Shown here piece by piece: positions 7,911 through 32,029 of a DNA stretch of 39,460 bases. The notes beneath the pieces are model-generated. The model was not told where the DNA came from. It ran no database searches and saw only the letters and a program-made list of their open reading frames with translations. Source of the stretch: a virus. Each line of letters starts with the position of its first letter. The stretch's first letter is position 1. The stretch covers positions 1-39,460 of IMG/VR virus record IMGVR_UViG_3300050821_004201; one strand, given 5' to 3'. The position numbers and the translations under genes are program-made.

Positions 7911-8129
7911 TTAGAGAACGCGCTTCTGTCCCCGCCATAGCTCTGGCGGTCGGGCCAGGTGGGGCTTACCGCGAAGATTAAAGAACAGCAGCCATCCGCT
8001 CTTGGCGTCACACAGGCCGCGGACACATCGCTTCTCCTCCAGGATATGCGCTTGCGGCCCGATCTCCTTCTCAACGTTCACGTACCAGACCACCTTCCAG
8101 TTCCGTTTGGGCGGTTGCTTGACGGTCAA
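7911..8129 (-). CDS. 72-residue unknown protein with TTG start
   Basis: This is a 72-residue protein read from TTG at 8127-8129. The start is supported by a perfect AGGAGGT six bases upstream. The product is basic, with an aromatic N-terminal half (NWKVVWYVNVEKEIG) and two Cys (KRCVRGLCDAK). It ends RPPELWRGQKRVL. No helix-turn-helix or other family is recognised. It stands alone on the minus strand between the scaffold and capsid blocks and faces away from the plus-strand unit that starts near 8211. It could be a small regulator of that switch, but this is only a guess from position. Confidence 0.6.
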   Translation of the reverse strand: MTVKQPPKRNWKVVWYVNVEKEIGPQAHILEEKRCVRGLCDAKSGWLLFFNLRGKPHLARPPELWRGQKRVL

Positions 8130-15819: not shown

Positions 15820-15968
15820 ACGGGGATGACCTTGTGTATAGCGTCGCGGAACTCCAATAATTCGTCATACGTATCAAACTCGAAGTACGATACTTTACCG
15901 GCCACCTCGATAGTCAATAGCCAAGGGTACGTAATCCGCATTTCATCTAGTTTAAGGGTTACTTTCAA
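15816..15968 (-). CDS. Unknown late protein, TTG start (50 residues)
   Basis: A 50-residue frame starts with TTG at 15966-15968 inside the terminase small subunit stop (TTGA overlap) and ends in an ATGA overlap with the next gene. The product reads KVTLKLDEMRITYPWLLTIE and then a segment rich in Tyr, Phe, Asp and Glu. It looks like a small alpha/beta protein. Overlaps on both sides and clean amino-acid composition are the evidence. Confidence 0.55.
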   Translation of the reverse strand: MKVTLKLDEMRITYPWLLTIEVAGKVSYFEFDTYDELLEFRDAIHKVIPV

Positions 15969-16510
15969 ACCAGATCCTCCAGACCAGGGTAGACTTCCTG
16001 ATAATCACTTACTTCAATCGTTGTAGCTTTGTCTCCCACCAAGGTCCGTGGGTCTACCCCGAGTACTTTGGCCATCTCAGTCAGCTCCTTGATCATCTGA
16101 GCGTCGGTGATGGTCACGTTCACCTCGTGTACACTCTTTGGTCCCATCCCGGCCGAGCTGAGGATGCTGTCGACCGCCTTTAGCCGATCGCTGTCCTTGG
16201 CAATTGGGGAACTCGCAATTTGTTCCCGGACCCGTACCGCCATAGCCACCGAGGATCGGTTGAACTTCTCGGCCACCTCCTGGATCGCCGCCAACACGTC
16301 CTGACGGTGACAGAGCCGGTGAGCCTGCACCCGCATGTAGCCAGGGTTCTCTGAGATGTACCCGGCCCGTGTCGCCGCCGCGGAGTGGTTGTTGTCGCCA
16401 GCGAGAAGTAGTTCCCAGACAAACTGCCGCATCCGGTCGTTGGGGAGCGCTTTCATCTTGGGGCCAAGCTCCTGGGTCTTCCAAGAGCTTGGCGAGAGGT
16501 CTTTAGTCAT
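15965..16510 (-). CDS. Terminase small subunit
   Basis: This is a 181-residue protein from the ATG at 16508-16510; a longer frame would run through the upstream gene. The N-terminal half has a helix-turn-helix-like region (MRQFVWELLLAGDNNHSAAATRAGY, about residues 27-51), then HRLCHRQDVLAAIQEVAEKF. This pattern is common in phage small terminases that bind the packaging site and load the large subunit. The C-terminal half holds LKAVDSILSSAGMGP and a helix that may drive oligomerisation. It precedes the large subunit by three small genes. Confidence 0.75.
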   Translation of the reverse strand: MTKDLSPSSWKTQELGPKMKALPNDRMRQFVWELLLAGDNNHSAAATRAGYISENPGYMRVQAHRLCHRQDVLAAIQEVAEKFNRSSVAMAVRVREQIASSPIAKDSDRLKAVDSILSSAGMGPKSVHEVNVTITDAQMIKELTEMAKVLGVDPRTLVGDKATTIEVSDYQEVYPGLEDLV

Positions 16511-16679
16511 TGAGCAGCAGGCCGTCCAGGTAGTCGTAGAAGTCTTCCGAGTAGAACGCGCGGGTGTCATCGCTTATTGGGCCGCCGAAAATGTCGGTTG
16601 TAATTTCCCACTCGCCGTGCGCCTTTTTGCGCGCCGTTCCGGTCAAGGTAAATGCTGAGGTTTCGCCGCCACCATCCAT
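16503..16679 (-). CDS. First gene of the late head operon, unknown (58 residues)
   Basis: This is a 58-residue protein from the ATG at 16677-16679, with GGAGGG about eight bases upstream, a strong site. A Gly-rich start (MDGGGETS) leads to a basic segment (GTARKKAHGEWEITTD) and an acidic C-terminus (DDTRAFYSEDFYDYLDGLLLND). It overlaps the small terminase start by eight bases. Function unknown. Confidence 0.62.
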   Translation of the reverse strand: MDGGGETSAFTLTGTARKKAHGEWEITTDIFGGPISDDTRAFYSEDFYDYLDGLLLND

Positions 16680-16856: not shown

Positions 16857-16917
16857 GGTCTCTAAAGTTGTATGATTAATGTCTTGACACCGCATGTGCG
16901 ACCGTTGCCAACCCAAT

Positions 16918-16932
16918 TGCGAATGGTTCGCA
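16918..16932. promoter_or_regulatory. Palindromic operator TGCGAATGGTTCGCA, copy 1
   Basis: A perfect 6-3-6 palindrome (TGCGAA, TGG, TTCGCA). An identical 15-mer lies at 17013-17027. Two identical palindromes 95 bp apart in an intergenic region between divergent operons are strong signs of binding sites for a dimeric regulator. A short CGCA-TG-TGCG palindrome precedes it at 16891-16900. I could not identify the regulator gene in this window. Confidence 0.65.
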
Positions 16933-16983
16933 TGTAGTAATTGCTGTTATCGCATGATGAATATGAGGCGCGCGAATACAACG

Positions 16984-16996
16984 TGAACATGGTTCA
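16984..16996. promoter_or_regulatory. Palindrome TGAAC-ATG-GTTCA
   Basis: A perfect 5-3-5 inverted repeat lies between the two 15-base operators. It has the same layout (short arms, 3-base centre) and a related GTTC core, so it may be a weaker site of the same protein or a site for a second one. The stretch 16933-17039 holds no convincing gene. Confidence 0.45.
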
Positions 16997-17012
16997 ATAT
17001 GGGAACACCAGA

Positions 17013-17027
17013 TGCGAATGGTTCGCA
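17013..17027. promoter_or_regulatory. Palindromic operator TGCGAATGGTTCGCA, copy 2
   Basis: Identical in all 15 bases to copy 1. It lies immediately before an AGGAG and a short open frame (17040-17108) and about 130 bases before the structured leader of the early operon. Its place suggests control of early plus-strand transcription. Confidence 0.65.
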
Positions 17028-17748: not shown

Positions 17749-17940
17749 ATGATCCACTATCCAACACACCCCGAAAAGGCGTTGTCGATAAGTGACGACG
17801 ATTTGTGTGCTGCATGCTCGCAGCTTTGCTATCGTCCGGGTGAAACCAGTCGCTGTGCTTTAGGATTTCCGGCTGGGTTTGACCAAGACGGCTACGCCCA
17901 AGAGTGTGAGGAGTTTAGCCTGTTGCCAAAGTCTGTTTGA
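17749..17940 (+). CDS. Cys-rich small early protein (63 residues)
   Basis: This is a 63-residue protein with GAGGAG about 13 bases upstream. Five Cys (LCAACSQLC, SRCALGF, QECEEF) could bind a metal, for example with the first CxxC and later ones. It is acidic overall. No export signal is present, so disulfides are unlikely. Unknown family. Confidence 0.58.
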   Translation: MIHYPTHPEKALSISDDDLCAACSQLCYRPGETSRCALGFPAGFDQDGYAQECEEFSLLPKSV

Positions 17941-17958
17941 TGATACCCCTCACGCAAC

Positions 17959-18213
17959 GATAACCTTGCTTGGGCCCCCTTATAAGAGGGGGGCACAATT
18001 GCGTATGGGCAAGTCCGACAGCTTACGCAGATTGCGTATGGAATTGCGTATGAAAATCCCCAGGGTTTCTGCGGGTCTCAGCGCTTCCTCACGCAATATG
18101 CGTATGACCTCACGCAATCTGCGTATGACAGCTCCTCACGCAGTTCTTACGCAGTTTTGTACACCTTAGGTTTTATTGCGTATGACCCCAGGTTGTGCGC
18201 ATGATAACCTTGC
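17959..18213. repeat. Iteron-like array of ACGCA/TGCGT elements flanked by direct repeats
   Basis: Twelve ACGCA or TGCGT cores lie at about 17952, 18000, 18025, 18033, 18045, 18091, 18099, 18112, 18120, 18138, 18149 and 18177. Many extend to ATTGCGTATGA or CCTCACGCAAT. Several pair as palindromes: TACGCA-GAT-TGCGTA (18024-18038), ACGCA-ATA-TGCGT (18091-18103) and ACGCA-ATC-TGCGT (18112-18124). The last two belong to a tandem 21-base repeat (18087-18107 and 18108-18128) with one mismatch. The array is bracketed by GATAACCTTGC at 17959-17969 and 18203-18213. A GC hairpin (17975-17980 with 17987-17992) lies at the left edge. It looks like a replication origin with iterons or a multi-site operator. 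The 300-base stretch holds no gene. Confidence 0.7.
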
Positions 18214-18240
18214 GAACCACTATCAACAGGAGATTTCACT

Positions 18241-18657
18241 ATGGAAATCAACATAACCCAATTTGTAACCAATGCCGATCCCTTCGAGTTTAGTGCGTCA
18301 GAAGCTGAGCGCGGCCCAAATGCCGGCCGGGATACCTGGAACAATGCCAAGGTTGTTGGTACTAAAGATCCGATCCTCACCACACCAGAACAGCTTGACG
18401 CGCTTCGTGACTATATGCGTGGGTTTGGCGCTTGGAAAGACGATGAAATTGACGGGTGGTCCGAAGCTGAGTGCAACGCCATGTTCATTCAAGAGATCAG
18501 TGCACGAATGCGTGAAGCTGGTATGGACGAGGTATTTTTAGAGGATTTCGATTGGGTGGAATATGAGGAGCGCGTAATGGCAGGTGAGATTTCAGGCCCC
18601 ATCTATCGCGGTGACGATGGTCAGTTCTATTTCAATCTAGCACAGTCGCCTGGATAA
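18241..18657 (+). CDS. Early acidic protein, unknown (138 residues)
   Basis: This is a 138-residue acidic protein with AGGAG eight bases upstream. The N-terminus reads MEINITQFVTNADPFEFSAS and ERGPNAGRDTWNNAK. The middle has RDYMRGFGAWKDDEIDGWSEAECNAMFIQEISARMRE, and the end is very acidic (DEVFLEDFDWVEYEER). I believe similar proteins occur in phages and plasmids of proteobacteria, but I know no function. Acidic proteins of this kind can mimic DNA or bind host regulators; that is speculation. Its last codons lie inside the first copy of the 62-base duplicated element. It follows the iteron array. Confidence 0.68.
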   Translation: MEINITQFVTNADPFEFSASEAERGPNAGRDTWNNAKVVGTKDPILTTPEQLDALRDYMRGFGAWKDDEIDGWSEAECNAMFIQEISARMREAGMDEVFLEDFDWVEYEERVMAGEISGPIYRGDDGQFYFNLAQSPG

Positions 18658-18738
18658 CAACACAATTTTAACAAATCCAGGCGATCATGGTACTCTGTTG
18701 TGAATAACGCAGTTGTTAACCCCAAGGAGAATGACATG
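18638..18738 (+). repeat. Duplicated hairpin module, copy A
   Basis: Bases 18638-18699 are identical to 18945-19006 (62 of 62). Inside, TCGCCTGGAT (18646-18655) and ATCCAGGCGA (18675-18684) form a perfect 10-bp inverted repeat with a 19-base AT-rich loop. In copy A an 18-base stretch (18700-18717) separates this from the shared ribosome site and start (18718-18738), while in copy B it is missing. Copy A contains the last coding codons and stop of the preceding gene, so it is probably the original. Confidence 0.75.
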
Positions 18739-20132: not shown

Positions 20133-20320
20133 AACGCTTTCGCCAAGACAATACTGAAGGCTATAGCGACGTCGACTTGGCCGTGATGAACGAAGCATTT
20201 GATTGTGCCGTGAATAGGTATATGGAACTGGTGGGGAAGATAGACAAATCATTACTCGACCATCTGGCCGAAGAAGTCCAGTTCACGTTTGACCAACAAC
20301 ACAAGGAACCGGCACTATGA
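20129..20320 (+). CDS. Small acidic early protein (63 residues)
   Basis: This is a 63-residue protein with ATGA overlaps at both ends. The N-terminus is charged (MKRFRQDNTEGYSDVDLAVMNEAFD); a helical body follows (YMELVGKIDKSLLDHLAEEVQFTFDQQ). Unknown function. Confidence 0.55.
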   Translation: MKRFRQDNTEGYSDVDLAVMNEAFDCAVNRYMELVGKIDKSLLDHLAEEVQFTFDQQHKEPAL

Positions 20321-20463
20321 AATTAACAGAGGCAGAGCTTATGCGCCTGCATCCCCAAAGCATGGAACAATTGCGGCAACTGTTAAAGCTGCATGGCAAG
20401 GCAAAGATCTTGCGCGCGATCGCTGAGTTAGAGCAGAACGCCAAGAAAGTGGAGGCACCATGA
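20317..20463 (+). CDS. Small early helical protein (48 residues)
   Basis: This is a 48-residue protein in the overlap chain. It is nearly all helix with Leu spacing (MKLTEAELMRLHPQSMEQLR, then LLKLHGKAKILRAIAELEQNAKK), which suggests a short coiled coil. Confidence 0.52.
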   Translation: MKLTEAELMRLHPQSMEQLRQLLKLHGKAKILRAIAELEQNAKKVEAP

Positions 20464-20534
20464 AACACTGGATTGAGATTGCGACTGTCACTTGGGGCTT
20501 TGCGGCCCTCGCTGTGTTCCTGGTGTCGCTGTGA
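20460..20534 (+). CDS. 24-residue membrane peptide
   Basis: A 24-residue frame in ATGA overlap with the previous gene. After MKHWIEI it is one hydrophobic span (ATVTWGFAALAVFLVSL). Its end overlaps the next start by one base. The chain of such overlaps over nine genes supports translation even at this size. Confidence 0.5.
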   Translation: MKHWIEIATVTWGFAALAVFLVSL

Positions 20535-20644
20535 TGAACGCGCTTTTGTATGGCTCAATCGGCCTTGCGGCGCTCTCCATTGGCCTATTCCTTTGGGGCG
20601 TTGTGGCTTATGAACTCCGCGCCCGTAAGAGGAGTAAGCAATGA
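20534..20644 (+). CDS. 36-residue membrane peptide
   Basis: A 36-residue peptide with one span (LYGSIGLAALSIGLFLWGVVAYEL) and a basic tail (RARKRSKQ), so N-out and C-in by the positive-inside rule. It overlaps its neighbours by one and four bases. Confidence 0.52.
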   Translation: MNALLYGSIGLAALSIGLFLWGVVAYELRARKRSKQ

Positions 20645-20760
20645 CCCGCCGCATCGTCTTCGCCGTCGTGTTCGCCGCGCTGCTGGCCGTCACCTACGAA
20701 TTAGGGTGGGAAACGGCCGGCGCCGCCTTTGTAGCTAAGACACAGGAGTTTTCGGCATGA
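20641..20760 (+). CDS. 39-residue peptide with N-terminal hydrophobic segment
   Basis: A 39-residue peptide, MTRR followed by IVFAVVFAALLAVTYELGW and a polar tail (ETAGAAFVAKTQEFSA). The start resembles a signal anchor or signal peptide. ATGA overlaps on both sides; AGGAG (20632-20636) lies four bases before the ATG. Confidence 0.52.
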   Translation: MTRRIVFAVVFAALLAVTYELGWETAGAAFVAKTQEFSA

Positions 20761-20837
20761 AAGGTTGGATTTGTACTATGTGTAAACGCTGGAACGAAAG
20801 TTGGTGGCCAACCTGCAAGCGGTGCGGACACAGTTAA
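20757..20837 (+). CDS. 26-residue zinc-ribbon peptide
   Basis: A 26-residue peptide with two CxxC pairs (ICTMCKRW and TCKRCGHS), the minimum for a zinc knuckle. Its TAA at 20835-20837 overlaps the minus-strand TAA of the primase gene in the palindrome TTAA. It closes the chain of overlapping tiny genes. The four Cys in this spacing are unlikely to be chance. Confidence 0.55.
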   Translation: MKGWICTMCKRWNESWWPTCKRCGHS

Positions 20838-22627
20838 GAAGGGTTAAGCATCCATCGCCATTCTTTTTTCTTGCCGTCCCTGGTGGTCCGTGAGGCTATC
20901 AGGGACGCATATTTTGCCGAGCGGTGACTATCCGACAGCGTTTTAATCATCCGTCCGACTATATCATCCGTCGCATTTGGCCCGCACAGATTTTCTGCCA
21001 TTACCGCGTCCGTCGATCCCTTCTCCCACGTCCTGATATCGTGGCGCTCCAGGTAGGATTTGATCCGATACTTCAGCTCGAATACGCTCTCGTCCGACTG
21101 ATCCTGCACCTTGCGCTTGACCTCGGCTGGACCGAGCTTGCGTGGCACTGGTACACCTTCGGGATCGTAGCCATAGACGACCGAGTGACCGTCCTCGCCA
21201 TCTTTCATCCATTTGCACGTTAAGTTAATCGTGTGAGCCTCCTTATTGTGCTCCGCGATCAGCACGCCGTCCGCTGCGTCCTCAAACCCGTGATGACCGC
21301 TGATCCCTTTCTCCCGGTCCTTGCCCAGGTGCGCCGGTATGATCACCAGCCCGTCGATTTCCTTTGCGATACGCCCCAATAGCCCGTTTGCGGTAAGCTG
21401 TGCGCTCGCCTCGGGTGCATGGGTATTGATGCCTGCCATTGCCGTTTGCAGCGTGTCGATAACAACGATATTGGCACCGAGATCCTTGCAAGTTTGAATA
21501 AAATCGTCGATGTCTGCTACACCAGCACAGACCATCGGCACCGCGGATATAGTGGTCCAGCGCCCTCGGAGATCAGCCGTCCCTAATCCATGTGCGGCTG
21601 CGTGAGCGGGAACTCGGAGCGTCTTGACACCGTTCGCCCCCTCCCCTACCGCATACACCACCTTAGCTTCGCCTTCGACCATCGCGGCCATGCTGAGCGA
21701 GATCGCAAGCCCGGTCTTATGCTGACCCTTGCCGCCGCCGAGAAGCAGCAAACCGTGCTTCGGGAGCATCTTGTCAGCGTCCCAGAACTCGACCGGTGGC
21801 GCTTGCTCGTCTTCGTCAGGGAATGACCAGGTAAACCGGCTCTTGCGCTTTGGCAGGGCTGGGAGTGCAGCGGCGAACGCTTCTTGGCTAGTTCCTGGTG
21901 ATGGCGCATCCCGACCCGGCTCAACCTGTCCGAATTTGAGGGCGTTGTCTAGCTTCGCCTCTATCGTCTCATCGTCCCATTGATCGGCAAAGTCCCGCTG
22001 CCACCATTGCCAAGCCTCCGTCGCCTGGTTTTTACTGAGCGCGAAGTCGCGAACCACCTTGGCCGCGATGATCCACCCATCTGTGTCTTCAGGCTGGTTG
22101 CCTAGCCATGTCCAAGCGCGTTCGACTGCCTCTGTCCCTGCATTCGGGTTGTCCTCGATTGGCTCCGCTTGCCGCTCCTCGCGCTCGTTCAGCCGCTCCG
22201 CAGCCCAATCTGGAAAGTCCACAGGCTCACGGCCGTCGAGCACATGGTAGCCTGGTGAGGGAGGCACAAGCACGTAGCCATTGGCCGATCGCACGTCGAT
22301 GCCCGGCGCCCATTTACCATTGCCAAACTCTTGCCAGCTTCGGTAGTAGCGATGTAATCCACCGCTTGGGGTGCGAACGGTGTAGGTCTCCGGCAATTCT
22401 GGCTCATGCGCCTTGTCTTCATCGATGATCACAAAGCCAGCGTCAACCGGCCGCACACCGATCGAATACTGACCATCCTTAAAATACCGATCGATCAGAG
22501 TTGTATCGAGCGTCCGCCCGTGGTAGCCCTTGGCTATGACTGGCAGCTTATCCGGCCAATGACGGCATGGGGTGACAGGGGTTTCCTCGGCAGCTAGGCG
22601 CCGCGCCTCTGCATGTAGGGGGTGCAT
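20834..22627 (-). CDS. Primase-polymerase fused to RepA-type helicase
   Basis: This is a 597-residue protein if started at ATG 22625-22627; a TTG 20 codons earlier is open. Residues 1-140 are a prim-pol domain: FVIIDED (65-71) for metal, TPSGGLHRYY (86-95) and DVRSANGYVLVPPS (111-124). Residues about 290-500 are a RecA-like helicase: a Walker A variant GGGKGQHKTG (297-306, His where Gly is usual), Walker B NIVVIDT (386-392) and PAHLGKDREKGISG. It would prime and unwind at the fork. It is the only minus-strand gene in the early block and converges on the tiny-gene chain. The C-terminal 100 residues may be a winged-helix region. Confidence 0.85.
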   Translation of the reverse strand: MHPLHAEARRLAAEETPVTPCRHWPDKLPVIAKGYHGRTLDTTLIDRYFKDGQYSIGVRPVDAGFVIIDEDKAHEPELPETYTVRTPSGGLHRYYRSWQEFGNGKWAPGIDVRSANGYVLVPPSPGYHVLDGREPVDFPDWAAERLNEREERQAEPIEDNPNAGTEAVERAWTWLGNQPEDTDGWIIAAKVVRDFALSKNQATEAWQWWQRDFADQWDDETIEAKLDNALKFGQVEPGRDAPSPGTSQEAFAAALPALPKRKSRFTWSFPDEDEQAPPVEFWDADKMLPKHGLLLLGGGKGQHKTGLAISLSMAAMVEGEAKVVYAVGEGANGVKTLRVPAHAAAHGLGTADLRGRWTTISAVPMVCAGVADIDDFIQTCKDLGANIVVIDTLQTAMAGINTHAPEASAQLTANGLLGRIAKEIDGLVIIPAHLGKDREKGISGHHGFEDAADGVLIAEHNKEAHTINLTCKWMKDGEDGHSVVYGYDPEGVPVPRKLGPAEVKRKVQDQSDESVFELKYRIKSYLERHDIRTWEKGSTDAVMAENLCGPNATDDIVGRMIKTLSDSHRSAKYASLIASRTTRDGKKKEWRWMLNPS

Positions 22628-22636
22628 ACGTACCCG

Positions 22637-22665
22637 ATTATATGTAGGAGTGGTCGCGGTCCTAA
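22637..22665 (-). promoter_or_regulatory. Candidate primase promoter, nearly leaderless
   Basis: On the minus strand a perfect TATAAT (22637-22642) lies 9 bases before the chosen ATG, with TTAGGA (22660-22665) at 17-base spacing. Transcription would start only a few bases before the ATG. The divergent gene at 22708 begins 80 bases away, so the control region is very short and may be shared. Confidence 0.42.
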
Positions 22666-22707
22666 CACATATTGTTACAAAACACAAGCTAAAGGAGTAG
22701 GTTAACT

Positions 22708-29849: not shown

Positions 29850-29936
29850 GCATCCGTCCCAACTGATGGAACACGGGGTTCTCCTTGGAAAATCAGCCTC
29901 CTTCTGCTGTGAACTGCGAGACGTTGGGACGGATGC
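29850..29936 (+). promoter_or_regulatory. Perfect 14-bp inverted repeat burying the polymerase start codon
   Basis: GCATCCGTCCCAAC (29850-29863) is the exact reverse complement of GTTGGGACGGATGC (29923-29936), with a 59-base loop. The right arm contains the chosen ATG (29933-29935) and its GGGACGG ribosome site. In mRNA the stem would hide both. The loop holds a TTG and a GTG in the same frame. T4 and RB69 polymerases repress their own translation by binding an operator hairpin at the start; this looks like an analogue, but there is no direct evidence. Confidence 0.72.
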
Positions 29937-32029
29937 AAGTTGACCTCGACTTTGAAACGTGCAACCTCGCTGGCCTTGATCTGCAAAAGGTTGGGGCGGC
30001 GAGGTACACGGAAGACTTCTGGACTGAAATATTGTCCCTGGTATTCTGTCTAGATGAGGGCGAGAAACATTTGTGGCTGCCAGGTGCCGGTGGCCTGGAC
30101 GTTGCCCTTATTGTCCTAGATTGCGCAGCCTCTAACCCAAAGGTCATCTTCAACAGCCACAGCGCCTTCGAGCAGTTCGTCTGGATGAACATCATGGTTC
30201 CGCGGTTCGGTTTCCCACCGATCCCGATTAGCCGATGGAACGACACCCAGGCTTTGTGCGCCTATCATTCGGTCCCTCTCGCCCTTGACGGTGCGTTGAC
30301 AGCGCTTGCGCTACCCGTTGTGAAGGACGCCGAGGGGCAGCGGATCACGCTCGCCATGTCCCCGACAGCGAAGAACATCAAGAAGTGGAGCTATGAAAAA
30401 ACACATACACCCGAACGCATGGAGCGTGTTTACTCGTATAACGTTATCGACGTTGCCGGGGTATCGGTTATTCGAACTCGACTGGGACCGCTACCCGCAG
30501 CTGAGCGCGCCGTCTGGGAACTCGATCAAACCATCAATCAGCGAGGCGTTGGACTGGACCTGTCATTTGTGCGGGCAGCCCGAACTGTGGCGGAACGTGC
30601 ATCAGTGCCCCTGGTTGCCGAGTTTCGAGATCTTACAGGCGGCCTGAACCCTACCCAACGAGACGCGGTGCTGGCCTGGTGCCAGGGGGCCGTCCCAAAC
30701 CTTCAGAAGGCAACGATAGAGACGCTGCTAGGAGACGACGATGCGGATGAAGATGGACCAGTCCGGCTTTTACCGGAAGACAGTGCCGCTTCTGCTATTC
30801 CCGGAAACGTCAGACGAGCACTGGCTATTAGAGCAACTATTGGCAGTGCATCTGTCAAAAAACTCACCGCAATGGAACAGTGTGTATGTGGCGACGGCCG
30901 GGTCCGAGGACTTATACAGTATCACGCTGCCTTACCCGGACGTTTCGCCGGCCGCCTCATCCAGCCCCAAAACTTCCCCCGAGGAAGCCTCGGTCACCTC
31001 GACCCGGAAGTTAAAGTACGAGCCATCATGGCGGGTGATCCCGAGCAGGTTAAGGCAACTCTGGGATGCGAACCAATTGAAGCTGTGGTCTCTTCTCTCC
31101 GACATGCTTTTTGCGCTCGCCCTGGTCATGCCTTTGTATCTGGTGATTATTCTGGTGTGGAAGCTCGTCTTGTCCTAGCACTCGCCGGGCAACATGATCG
31201 CTGTGAGCTTTTAGCTTCTGGTTATCCGGTTTATTTCGATATGGCTGAGCGGGTCTTCGGGAAGCCGAAGGGTACCTGGGCAACGATGAACAAGGCGCAG
31301 CTCAAGGCCAACAAGGAAGCCTTCGCTTTCGAGTATCACATAGGGAAGAACGCTGAGCTAGGTTGTGGCTTTGGGCTCGGTGGTGACACCTTCTGCCGAA
31401 AGTATTGTCCTGACTGCAAATGTCGGTTCACCAAAGGTTGGTGTGAGTTCCCTGAGACCCCCGGTCGAAACGTAGCAGGTCGTGCGGTTTTCGCCTATCG
31501 GGAGGGCGCCGCGCCAAAGGTAATGGATCTTCATAAAGACCTAGAGAAGACAGCTTTGAAGGCCCTGTGGGGCACGGTTGACCAATGGTACGAGGCCGAC
31601 TGCGGGATAGCCTACCGGCTGCACGATGGCTGGATGCAATGCCGGTTGCTCGACGGAAAACTACTGCACTACTGGAACCCGCAGCCAATACGCAAGGATC
31701 GCTTCGGCCGGGCTAAGGACGGCTGGCAATACACCTGCTGGAAGGGCCGGCTAAAAAAGGTCGTCGACGCTTACGGTGGCATCCTGACCCAGAACGTGAT
31801 CGAGGGTCTAGCCCGGCAGCTCCTGGTTCACGCCATGTTAAAGGCTGAGGCTAATAAGATGCCCGTAGCCTTCCATGTTACTGATGAAATTATTACTGAG
31901 CCCGATGAACGCTACGGCACTGAGGCTCTAATCACTGAATTGATGACGAAAGACCTGCCCCGGTGGGTCTATGAGATCAGGTTCCCCTGCGCGGTGGAGA
32001 CATGGATTGGATCAAGGTACAAGAAATGA
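29933..32029 (+). CDS. Family A DNA polymerase with 3'-5' exonuclease domain
   Basis: This is a 698-residue protein from the ATG at 29933; the frame is open back to TTG 29885. The exonuclease domain shows DFET (6-9), a FNSHSAFEQF motif and YNVIDV. The polymerase has RRALAIRATIGSASVKKL, GRFAGRLIQPQNFPRG, motif A DYSGVEAR (405-412) and motif B GKNAELGCGFGLGG (about 471-484). In motif C the usual His-Asp-Glu reads Thr-Asp-Glu (HVTDE, about 648-652). A Cys-rich insert (five Cys between 488 and 504) follows motif B. It copies the phage genome. Confidence 0.88.
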   Translation: MQVDLDFETCNLAGLDLQKVGAARYTEDFWTEILSLVFCLDEGEKHLWLPGAGGLDVALIVLDCAASNPKVIFNSHSAFEQFVWMNIMVPRFGFPPIPISRWNDTQALCAYHSVPLALDGALTALALPVVKDAEGQRITLAMSPTAKNIKKWSYEKTHTPERMERVYSYNVIDVAGVSVIRTRLGPLPAAERAVWELDQTINQRGVGLDLSFVRAARTVAERASVPLVAEFRDLTGGLNPTQRDAVLAWCQGAVPNLQKATIETLLGDDDADEDGPVRLLPEDSAASAIPGNVRRALAIRATIGSASVKKLTAMEQCVCGDGRVRGLIQYHAALPGRFAGRLIQPQNFPRGSLGHLDPEVKVRAIMAGDPEQVKATLGCEPIEAVVSSLRHAFCARPGHAFVSGDYSGVEARLVLALAGQHDRCELLASGYPVYFDMAERVFGKPKGTWATMNKAQLKANKEAFAFEYHIGKNAELGCGFGLGGDTFCRKYCPDCKCRFTKGWCEFPETPGRNVAGRAVFAYREGAAPKVMDLHKDLEKTALKALWGTVDQWYEADCGIAYRLHDGWMQCRLLDGKLLHYWNPQPIRKDRFGRAKDGWQYTCWKGRLKKVVDAYGGILTQNVIEGLARQLLVHAMLKAEANKMPVAFHVTDEIITEPDERYGTEALITELMTKDLPRWVYEIRFPCAVETWIGSRYKK
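30741..31178 (+). other. Candidate overprinted gene inside the polymerase gene (145 residues)
   Basis: In the +1 frame relative to the polymerase, ATG at 30741 follows AGGAG at six-base spacing. The 145-residue product ends in a membrane hairpin-like region (LLSDMLFALALVMPLYLVIILVWKLVLS). Polymerase codons here have about 41 percent G or C at the third position (60 of 146, counted by hand), against about 78 percent in the 50 codons before 30392. The same alternate frame is open at 30393-30647 with a poor ribosome site. The polymerase frame is certain. The second gene is a hypothesis, since long shadow frames are common in GC-rich DNA. Confidence 0.3.

Follow-up and report, generated by a model that had tools for sequence, protein, structure and literature searches.

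This locus raises the question of what a dense cluster of short repeats does in the early region of a virus genome. The virus record is 39,460 bases long and was analysed whole (hereafter the window). The structural genes point leftward, starting from the small terminase gene. The early genes occupy about 17.1 kb to 35 kb and point rightward, apart from one among them, that of the replicase, which points leftward. The array sits in the early region, in a 300-base intergenic gap between an open reading frame (ORF) that ends at 17940 and another that begins at 18241. The genes that bear on its interpretation are these:

15965 to 16570, minus strand: small terminase subunit; the gene lies 1.4 kb from the array, on the side opposite the replicase
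18241 to 18657, plus strand: 138-aa early ORF directly after the array (phrog_24784)
20834 to 22687, minus strand: replicase of 617 aa, with a Prim-Pol primase-polymerase at residues 28-161, an AAA_25 RecA/RepA-type helicase at residues 285-458 and an undefined C-terminal part
29885 to 32029: family A DNA polymerase

The replication set of the window consists of the PrimPol-AAA_25 helicase, the family A polymerase, an SNF2-type helicase, a DUF2800 exonuclease and RusA. The PrimPol and AAA_25 protein gives the replicon an initiator or replicative helicase of its own. The replicase gene is transcribed toward the array, and its 3' end (20834) lies 2.6 kb away with small genes between. No other repeat array was found 3' of this gene (20320-20840). 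AlphaFold models of the replicase built without an alignment had mean confidences of 37 and 48, which is too poor to show a DNA-binding domain. The ORF at 18241-18657 shares 36% identity with a jumbo phage XacN1 protein and had no further phage-collection match at the limit applied. Farther into the early region, leader repeats TGTTAACCCCA / AAGGAGAATGA occur at 18714, 19003 and 19296, about 290 bases apart, before successive small early genes. The contig ends (1 and 39460) appear to cut one leftward structural gene, with an N-terminus beginning MPKSSPNQTNFLGGEW near the start of the contig and a 960-aa frame at its end. Because these pieces are in different frames across the contig joint, the genome may be near-complete with a small gap.

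The first-pass annotation had reported 12 ACGCA/TGCGT cores in 230 bases. We located all of them and checked them base by base, and they span 17952-18181. The features of the array and its edges are:

17952, 18000, 18025, 18033, 18045, 18091, 18099, 18112, 18120, 18138, 18149, 18177: starts of the ACGCA/TGCGT cores
18000, 18033, 18045, 18099, 18120, 18177: forward half-sites TGCGTATG
17952, 18091, 18112, 18138 (cores): reverse half-sites CTCACGCA
18025, 18149 (cores): reverse half-sites CTTACGCA
17959 to 17969, plus strand: left copy of GATAACCTTGC
17975 to 17992, no strand: G+C stem with an AT loop (CCCCCTT-ATAA-GAGGGGG) in the left part of the array
18024 to 18038, no strand: 6-3-6 palindrome TACGCA-GAT-TGCGTA
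18087 to 18128, plus strand: tandem units CCTCACGCAAT[A/C]TGCGTATGA, the complete version, of which the remaining sites represent halves
18203 to 18213, plus strand: right copy of GATAACCTTGC
18214 to 18273, no strand: AT-rich 60-mer (65% AT) that adjoins the right edge of the array and is partly coding

The window as a whole holds 70 ACGCA/TGCGT words where about 90 are expected, so the excess of cores is local. Across 300 order-2 Markov genomes, the largest core count per 230-base span was 5, with a mean of 3.4. The 8-mer CATACGCA occurs six times in the array and is absent from the rest of the window, and a cluster scan set against the Markov genomes picked out no other mixed-orientation cluster of this kind in the window. 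Both the density and the uniqueness of the array are far above chance. It has what is expected of iterons, namely a short word repeated many times within non-coding DNA and nowhere else in the replicon.

Alignment of the sites on the core revealed a feature absent from the earlier annotation, which is that the half-sites have a direction. Each of the six forward cores extends into TGCGTATG, and the six reverse cores read TGCGTGAGG in four cases and TGCGTAAG in two. Taken whole, the unit CCTCACGCAATATGCGTATGA is thus a near-palindrome with a direction. Complete copies lie at 18087 and 18108 and an almost complete one at 18021; the left half stands alone at 17948, 18134 and 18145 and the right half at 17988, 18033 and 18165. 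The two complete copies coincide with the two 21-base tandem units that had been annotated (18087-18107 and 18108-18128), which are alike at 20 of 21 bases. The annotation had also described several 5-3-5 or 6-3-6 palindromes. Three 5-3-5 palindromes were found (18025, 18091 and 18112), but only the first of them is a true 6-3-6. A 14-base stretch of this palindrome (18024-18037) recurs inverted at 18112-18125. The 11-base repeat GATAACCTTGC noted at each edge is exact in both copies; however, exact 11-mer repeats no more than 300 bases apart occur at about 10 other places in the window, so this flanking repeat is modest evidence and weaker than the core. The six forward sites also share one reading frame, which gives LRM/MRM peptides within a 96-aa frame (17879-18169). 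This is probably due to chance. In the ORF scan this frame began within the preceding gene and matched no functional family.

The array is not AT-rich, as had been stated, with 37-60% AT per 30-base block. An AT-rich element was found not inside the iterons but beside their right edge, where the 60-mer at 18214-18273 ranks among the ten most AT-rich in the window. This stretch is a weak candidate for the site of unwinding. Rfam and tRNA searches gave no match.

We also looked for the same array elsewhere and found no close relative that contains the region. In protein searches of viral contigs with the array-adjacent ORF, the replicase, the portal and the large terminase, the only near relative was L004, at 95% in the portal, and its contig stops short of the array. 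The replicase search of genome contigs gave no relative, and no DNA similarity to the array region was found in phages. A search with the single palindrome with TATG matched 59 stretches, none with an array, and the double TATG form was absent from the genome collection. A scan for paired palindromes returned operator-like pairs and a VapE-linked array in contig L118. Among the matches listed for TTGCGTATG pairs, the dense cases were low-complexity repeats and the word of the window was not found as an array elsewhere. Within the set of papers searched, no report of such arrays in the phages named here was found.

We therefore set the exact word aside and looked for comparable features in phages that have the portal or the replicase type in common with the window. 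Clusters were required to have at least two copies per direction within 300 bases, and each genome was judged against 12 Markov genomes. Arrays above chance were found in the window, VP5, MW202496, G005, L067, CRP-823, CRP-811, CRP-406, L118, Suzuki, KPN U2874, MA11 and Vibrio 1265, and the words differ in nearly all of these genomes. In the Roseobacter phages CRP-823 and CRP-811, which have an AAA_25 helicase, CTACAAA occurs 11 times in 163 bases (seven in one direction and four in the other) directly 3' of the helicase gene. The CRP-823 helicase is among the closest AAA_25 helicases found (28% identical to that of the window over 158 aa, E 1e-10). In Roseobacter phage CRP-406 the end of the primase/helicase gene carries seven copies of GCTGGAA. 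The AAA_25 helicases of CRP-811 and CRP-406, like that of CRP-823, are similar to the helicase of the window. Each of these three arrays is the strongest mixed-orientation cluster in its whole genome. Arrays also follow the primase gene in the PrimPol-DUF5906 phages Suzuki (TGTCACA), KPN U2874 (CTTGTAA) and MA11 (CCCTAAG), and in L118 CGTCACC occurs 13 times just 3' of the VapE gene. Visible but weaker arrays lie 3' of the primase gene in JS26, phiAxp-2 and BcepNazgul (the word near the primase gene of the last being TTCGGACC), and in BcepC6B repeats flank an AT-rich stretch just beyond the primase gene; on a strict count none of these four exceeded the null. In Serratia phage JS26 (L127, 6514-6792), the repeats 3' of the primase read TACGCAAT, which is the 8-mer/core word of the window, though the helicase domains differ.

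The positions of these arrays fall into two groups. In the CRP phages, L118, Casjensviridae and BcepC6B they lie 3' of the replicase, although five of the six Casjensviridae phages were read only around the replicase/primase, so that adjacency there is partly by construction. In VP5, MW202496, G005, L067 and Vibrio 1265 they lie upstream of the terminase genes, and in VP5, MW202496, G005 and Vibrio 1265 the array is closer to the terminase genes than to the replicase. In Vibrio phage 1265 (L141, 3523-3721), a 200-base stretch amid small early genes holds eight copies of ATGTCCA; the small terminase is 3 kb away and the primase-helicase gene 7 kb away. The array of the window is intermediate, being on the 3' side of the replicase at a distance of 2.6 kb and 1.4 kb from the small terminase. 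The cluster scan found no such array in BUCT708 or Vibrio 1.182, where the helicase is DnaB-type or similar (annotated as a replicative or other DNA helicase) and the top repeats are inside the gene preceding it. Nothing above chance was found in the AAA_25-type phages SETP3, Wheelie and Nigel, in HTVC010P, the PrimPol phage MW202898 or G001; the PrimPol phage phiM5 was marginal and not above chance, and plasmid homologues from Roseomonas and Polaromonas had no comparable array. A cluster in MW202898 (2006-2483) was rejected as an analogue, being made of one-directional repeats within annotated genes. Because several primase-helicase phages have no array above chance, the link between primase-helicase and array is a tendency, not a law.

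From these sequence comparisons we lean, at somewhat better than even confidence, toward the array being a putative iteron-type replication origin used by the phage primase-helicase. The first-pass annotation had offered an origin or a master operator. The comparative evidence favours the origin, because several groups of phages carry similarly dense mixed-orientation arrays on the 3' side of their primase-helicase genes and because BUCT708 and Vibrio 1.182, with their DnaB-type or similar helicases, do not have them; a master operator is less likely given the single locus and the lack of an overlapping promoter. We propose that the initiator, most likely the PrimPol-AAA_25 primase-helicase, would bind via a DNA-binding part outside its known domains to the many half-sites (TGCGTATG / CTYACGCA), single or paired 3 bases apart. 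The bound initiator would form a multimer and open the neighbouring DNA, load itself as the helicase and prime synthesis for the family A DNA polymerase. Alternatively, another early protein may bind the half-sites, form a multimer and load the helicase. We infer the binding, the replicase as the binder, the opening site and the start of replication at the array.

Close likenesses include the CRP phages, which, as in the window, combine an AAA_25-type replicase with a single word that is present in 7-11 copies, facing both ways, within less than 200 bases at a single locus. They differ in their words (CTACAAA and GCTGGAA) and in that the array adjoins or overlaps the end of the replicase gene, and CRP-823 also differs in its lambda-gpA-type terminase. 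The origin of phage P4 is used by the alpha protein, a primase-helicase initiator, and has short iterons in both directions like the window, but in P4 the helicase is D5-type and the iterons form two separate regions. The lambda O arrangement, with iterons inside the initiator gene and a DnaB-type helicase gene adjacent, is not seen here; the array is intergenic and the helicase is an AAA_25 primase-helicase. Self-binding by the replicase is suggested by analogy, because the helicases SaPI Rep and SCCmec Cch2 bind repeats downstream of their own genes, in their case through a C-terminal domain that recognises short iterons directly downstream (PMC7581432). These origins resemble the window in having many short intergenic repeats 3' of a mobile-element helicase or primase-helicase; by contrast, they have a D5/Primase_Cterm or DUF927 helicase that itself binds the repeats and an origin directly downstream (PMC7581432), whereas the window has AAA_25, a distance of 2.6 kb and a candidate binder. 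For plasmid pRN1, a stretch downstream of the replication gene is reported to be essential (PMC4234260). The RepA origin of the PLE satellites of Vibrio cholerae also consists of semi-palindromic iterons in a non-coding gap, which are bound by the element's own initiator, and initiator and origin covary; however, it has three repeats of about 30 bases and a RepA_N initiator rather than a helicase-primase (PMC8263062).

Several observations speak against an origin. A distance of 2.6 kb separates the array from the replicase gene where its closest analogues are adjacent, it has no AT-rich core, unlike most analogues, and the AAA_25 phages SETP3, Wheelie and Nigel lack an array, so the link is not universal. 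The lack of an array above chance in the PrimPol phages MW202898 and phiM5 and the nearness of several analogues to terminase genes also weigh against it. The cumulative GC skew has its extremes at 7,964 and 23,316 and no turning point at the array, though the skew is uninformative about where replication starts. With regard to class, the helicase of the window is AAA_25 and not of the D5/VapE/DUF5906 kind, which was seen only in comparison phages, and the array is on the 3' side of the helicase gene but not directly downstream of it. Because both a D5-type helicase and direct adjacency were looked for and not found, we keep the array out of the SaPI/P4 family, and it is most likely a variant of an iteron-type origin. 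It is possible, and we put this much more tentatively, that AAA_25 (RepA/RecA-type) primase-helicases are self-loading initiators for private, fast-changing words set out as dense arrays in both directions, a system parallel to that of the unrelated D5/VapE helicases, and that the window would be a detached variant without an AT-rich core.

The array ends 60 bases upstream of an early ORF, where a phage regulator could bind 5-3-5 palindromes and half-sites cooperatively and so control the rightward early genes from 18241. Closely spaced pairs of ACGCA-N3-TGCGT, the same palindrome as in the window, occur in 42 IMG/VR stretches (L082-L123), with a TTGAC/GTCAA -35-like box within or beside the pair in 27 of the 42; this layout resembles that of a repressor operator, and the palindrome is apparently a widespread operator word shared among phages. 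However, these stretches usually have two sites around TTGAC and no array of single half-sites, whereas the array has no TTGAC/GTCAA inside it and its twelve half-sites exceed most operators of this type. A second 6-3-6 palindrome pair (TGCGAA-TGG-TTCGCA) in the divergent region of the window at 16913-17027 would also fit a multi-site operator. Its two copies are 95 bases apart, in the interval that separates the small terminase from the early genes, near a TTGACA at about 16883, and this pair is likely a separate operator. At the array itself we found no overlapping sigma-70-like promoter of the kind that would place a 5-3-5 repressor operator over the -35/-10 elements. The sites are limited to one locus and so do not form a regulon-wide operator, and the ORF scan picked up no repressor or integrase family, although small regulators are easily missed. 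Taken together, we regard the multi-site operator as unlikely.

A role in packaging, with the small terminase binding the repeats of a pac or cosB-like site and packaging leftward through the terminase and structural genes, would suit the position of the array 1.4 kb upstream of the small terminase gene. The arrays of VP5, MW202496, G005, L067 and Vibrio 1265 are likewise upstream of the terminase genes, no more than a few kb away, and those of BcepNazgul and Suzuki are between the primase gene and the annotated cos, a few hundred bases from cos. By contrast, about 10 kb separates the BcepNazgul array from the small terminase gene, no such array lies near the terminase genes of BUCT708 or Vibrio 1.182, and the arrays of the CRP phages, L118, MA11 and KPN U2874 follow the replicase. 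The nuclease part of the large terminase of the window matches a large terminase structure (4dkw), which we take to be P22 gp2; such a match presumably indicates the headful type with pac inside the small-terminase gene, and we count it against packaging at the array. The contig ends cut a structural gene rather than the array and so give no hint of fixed genome ends there. We consider a packaging site quite improbable. The strand folds better than shuffled sequences (z -4.6 as RNA and -4.9 as DNA), which together with the common frame of the forward sites could point to hairpins in an early transcript, and a parS-like centromere cluster for partition belongs with this last group of explanations. 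However, inverted repeats increase folding energy irrespective of their role, Rfam gave no match, the 96-aa frame starts in the preceding gene and resembles no functional family, and no ParA/ParB-like family was recognised, so an RNA or partition element seems very improbable.

The origin reading matters because the origins of most phages are unmapped. If dense mixed-orientation arrays mark the origins of primase-helicase phages, origins would be predictable from sequence alone in many environmental viruses, and, if true, a replicase together with its array could be used as an orthogonal replicon. The window is a test case for whether AAA_25 helicases choose their own origin, as the D5-type helicases of SaPI and SCC elements do.
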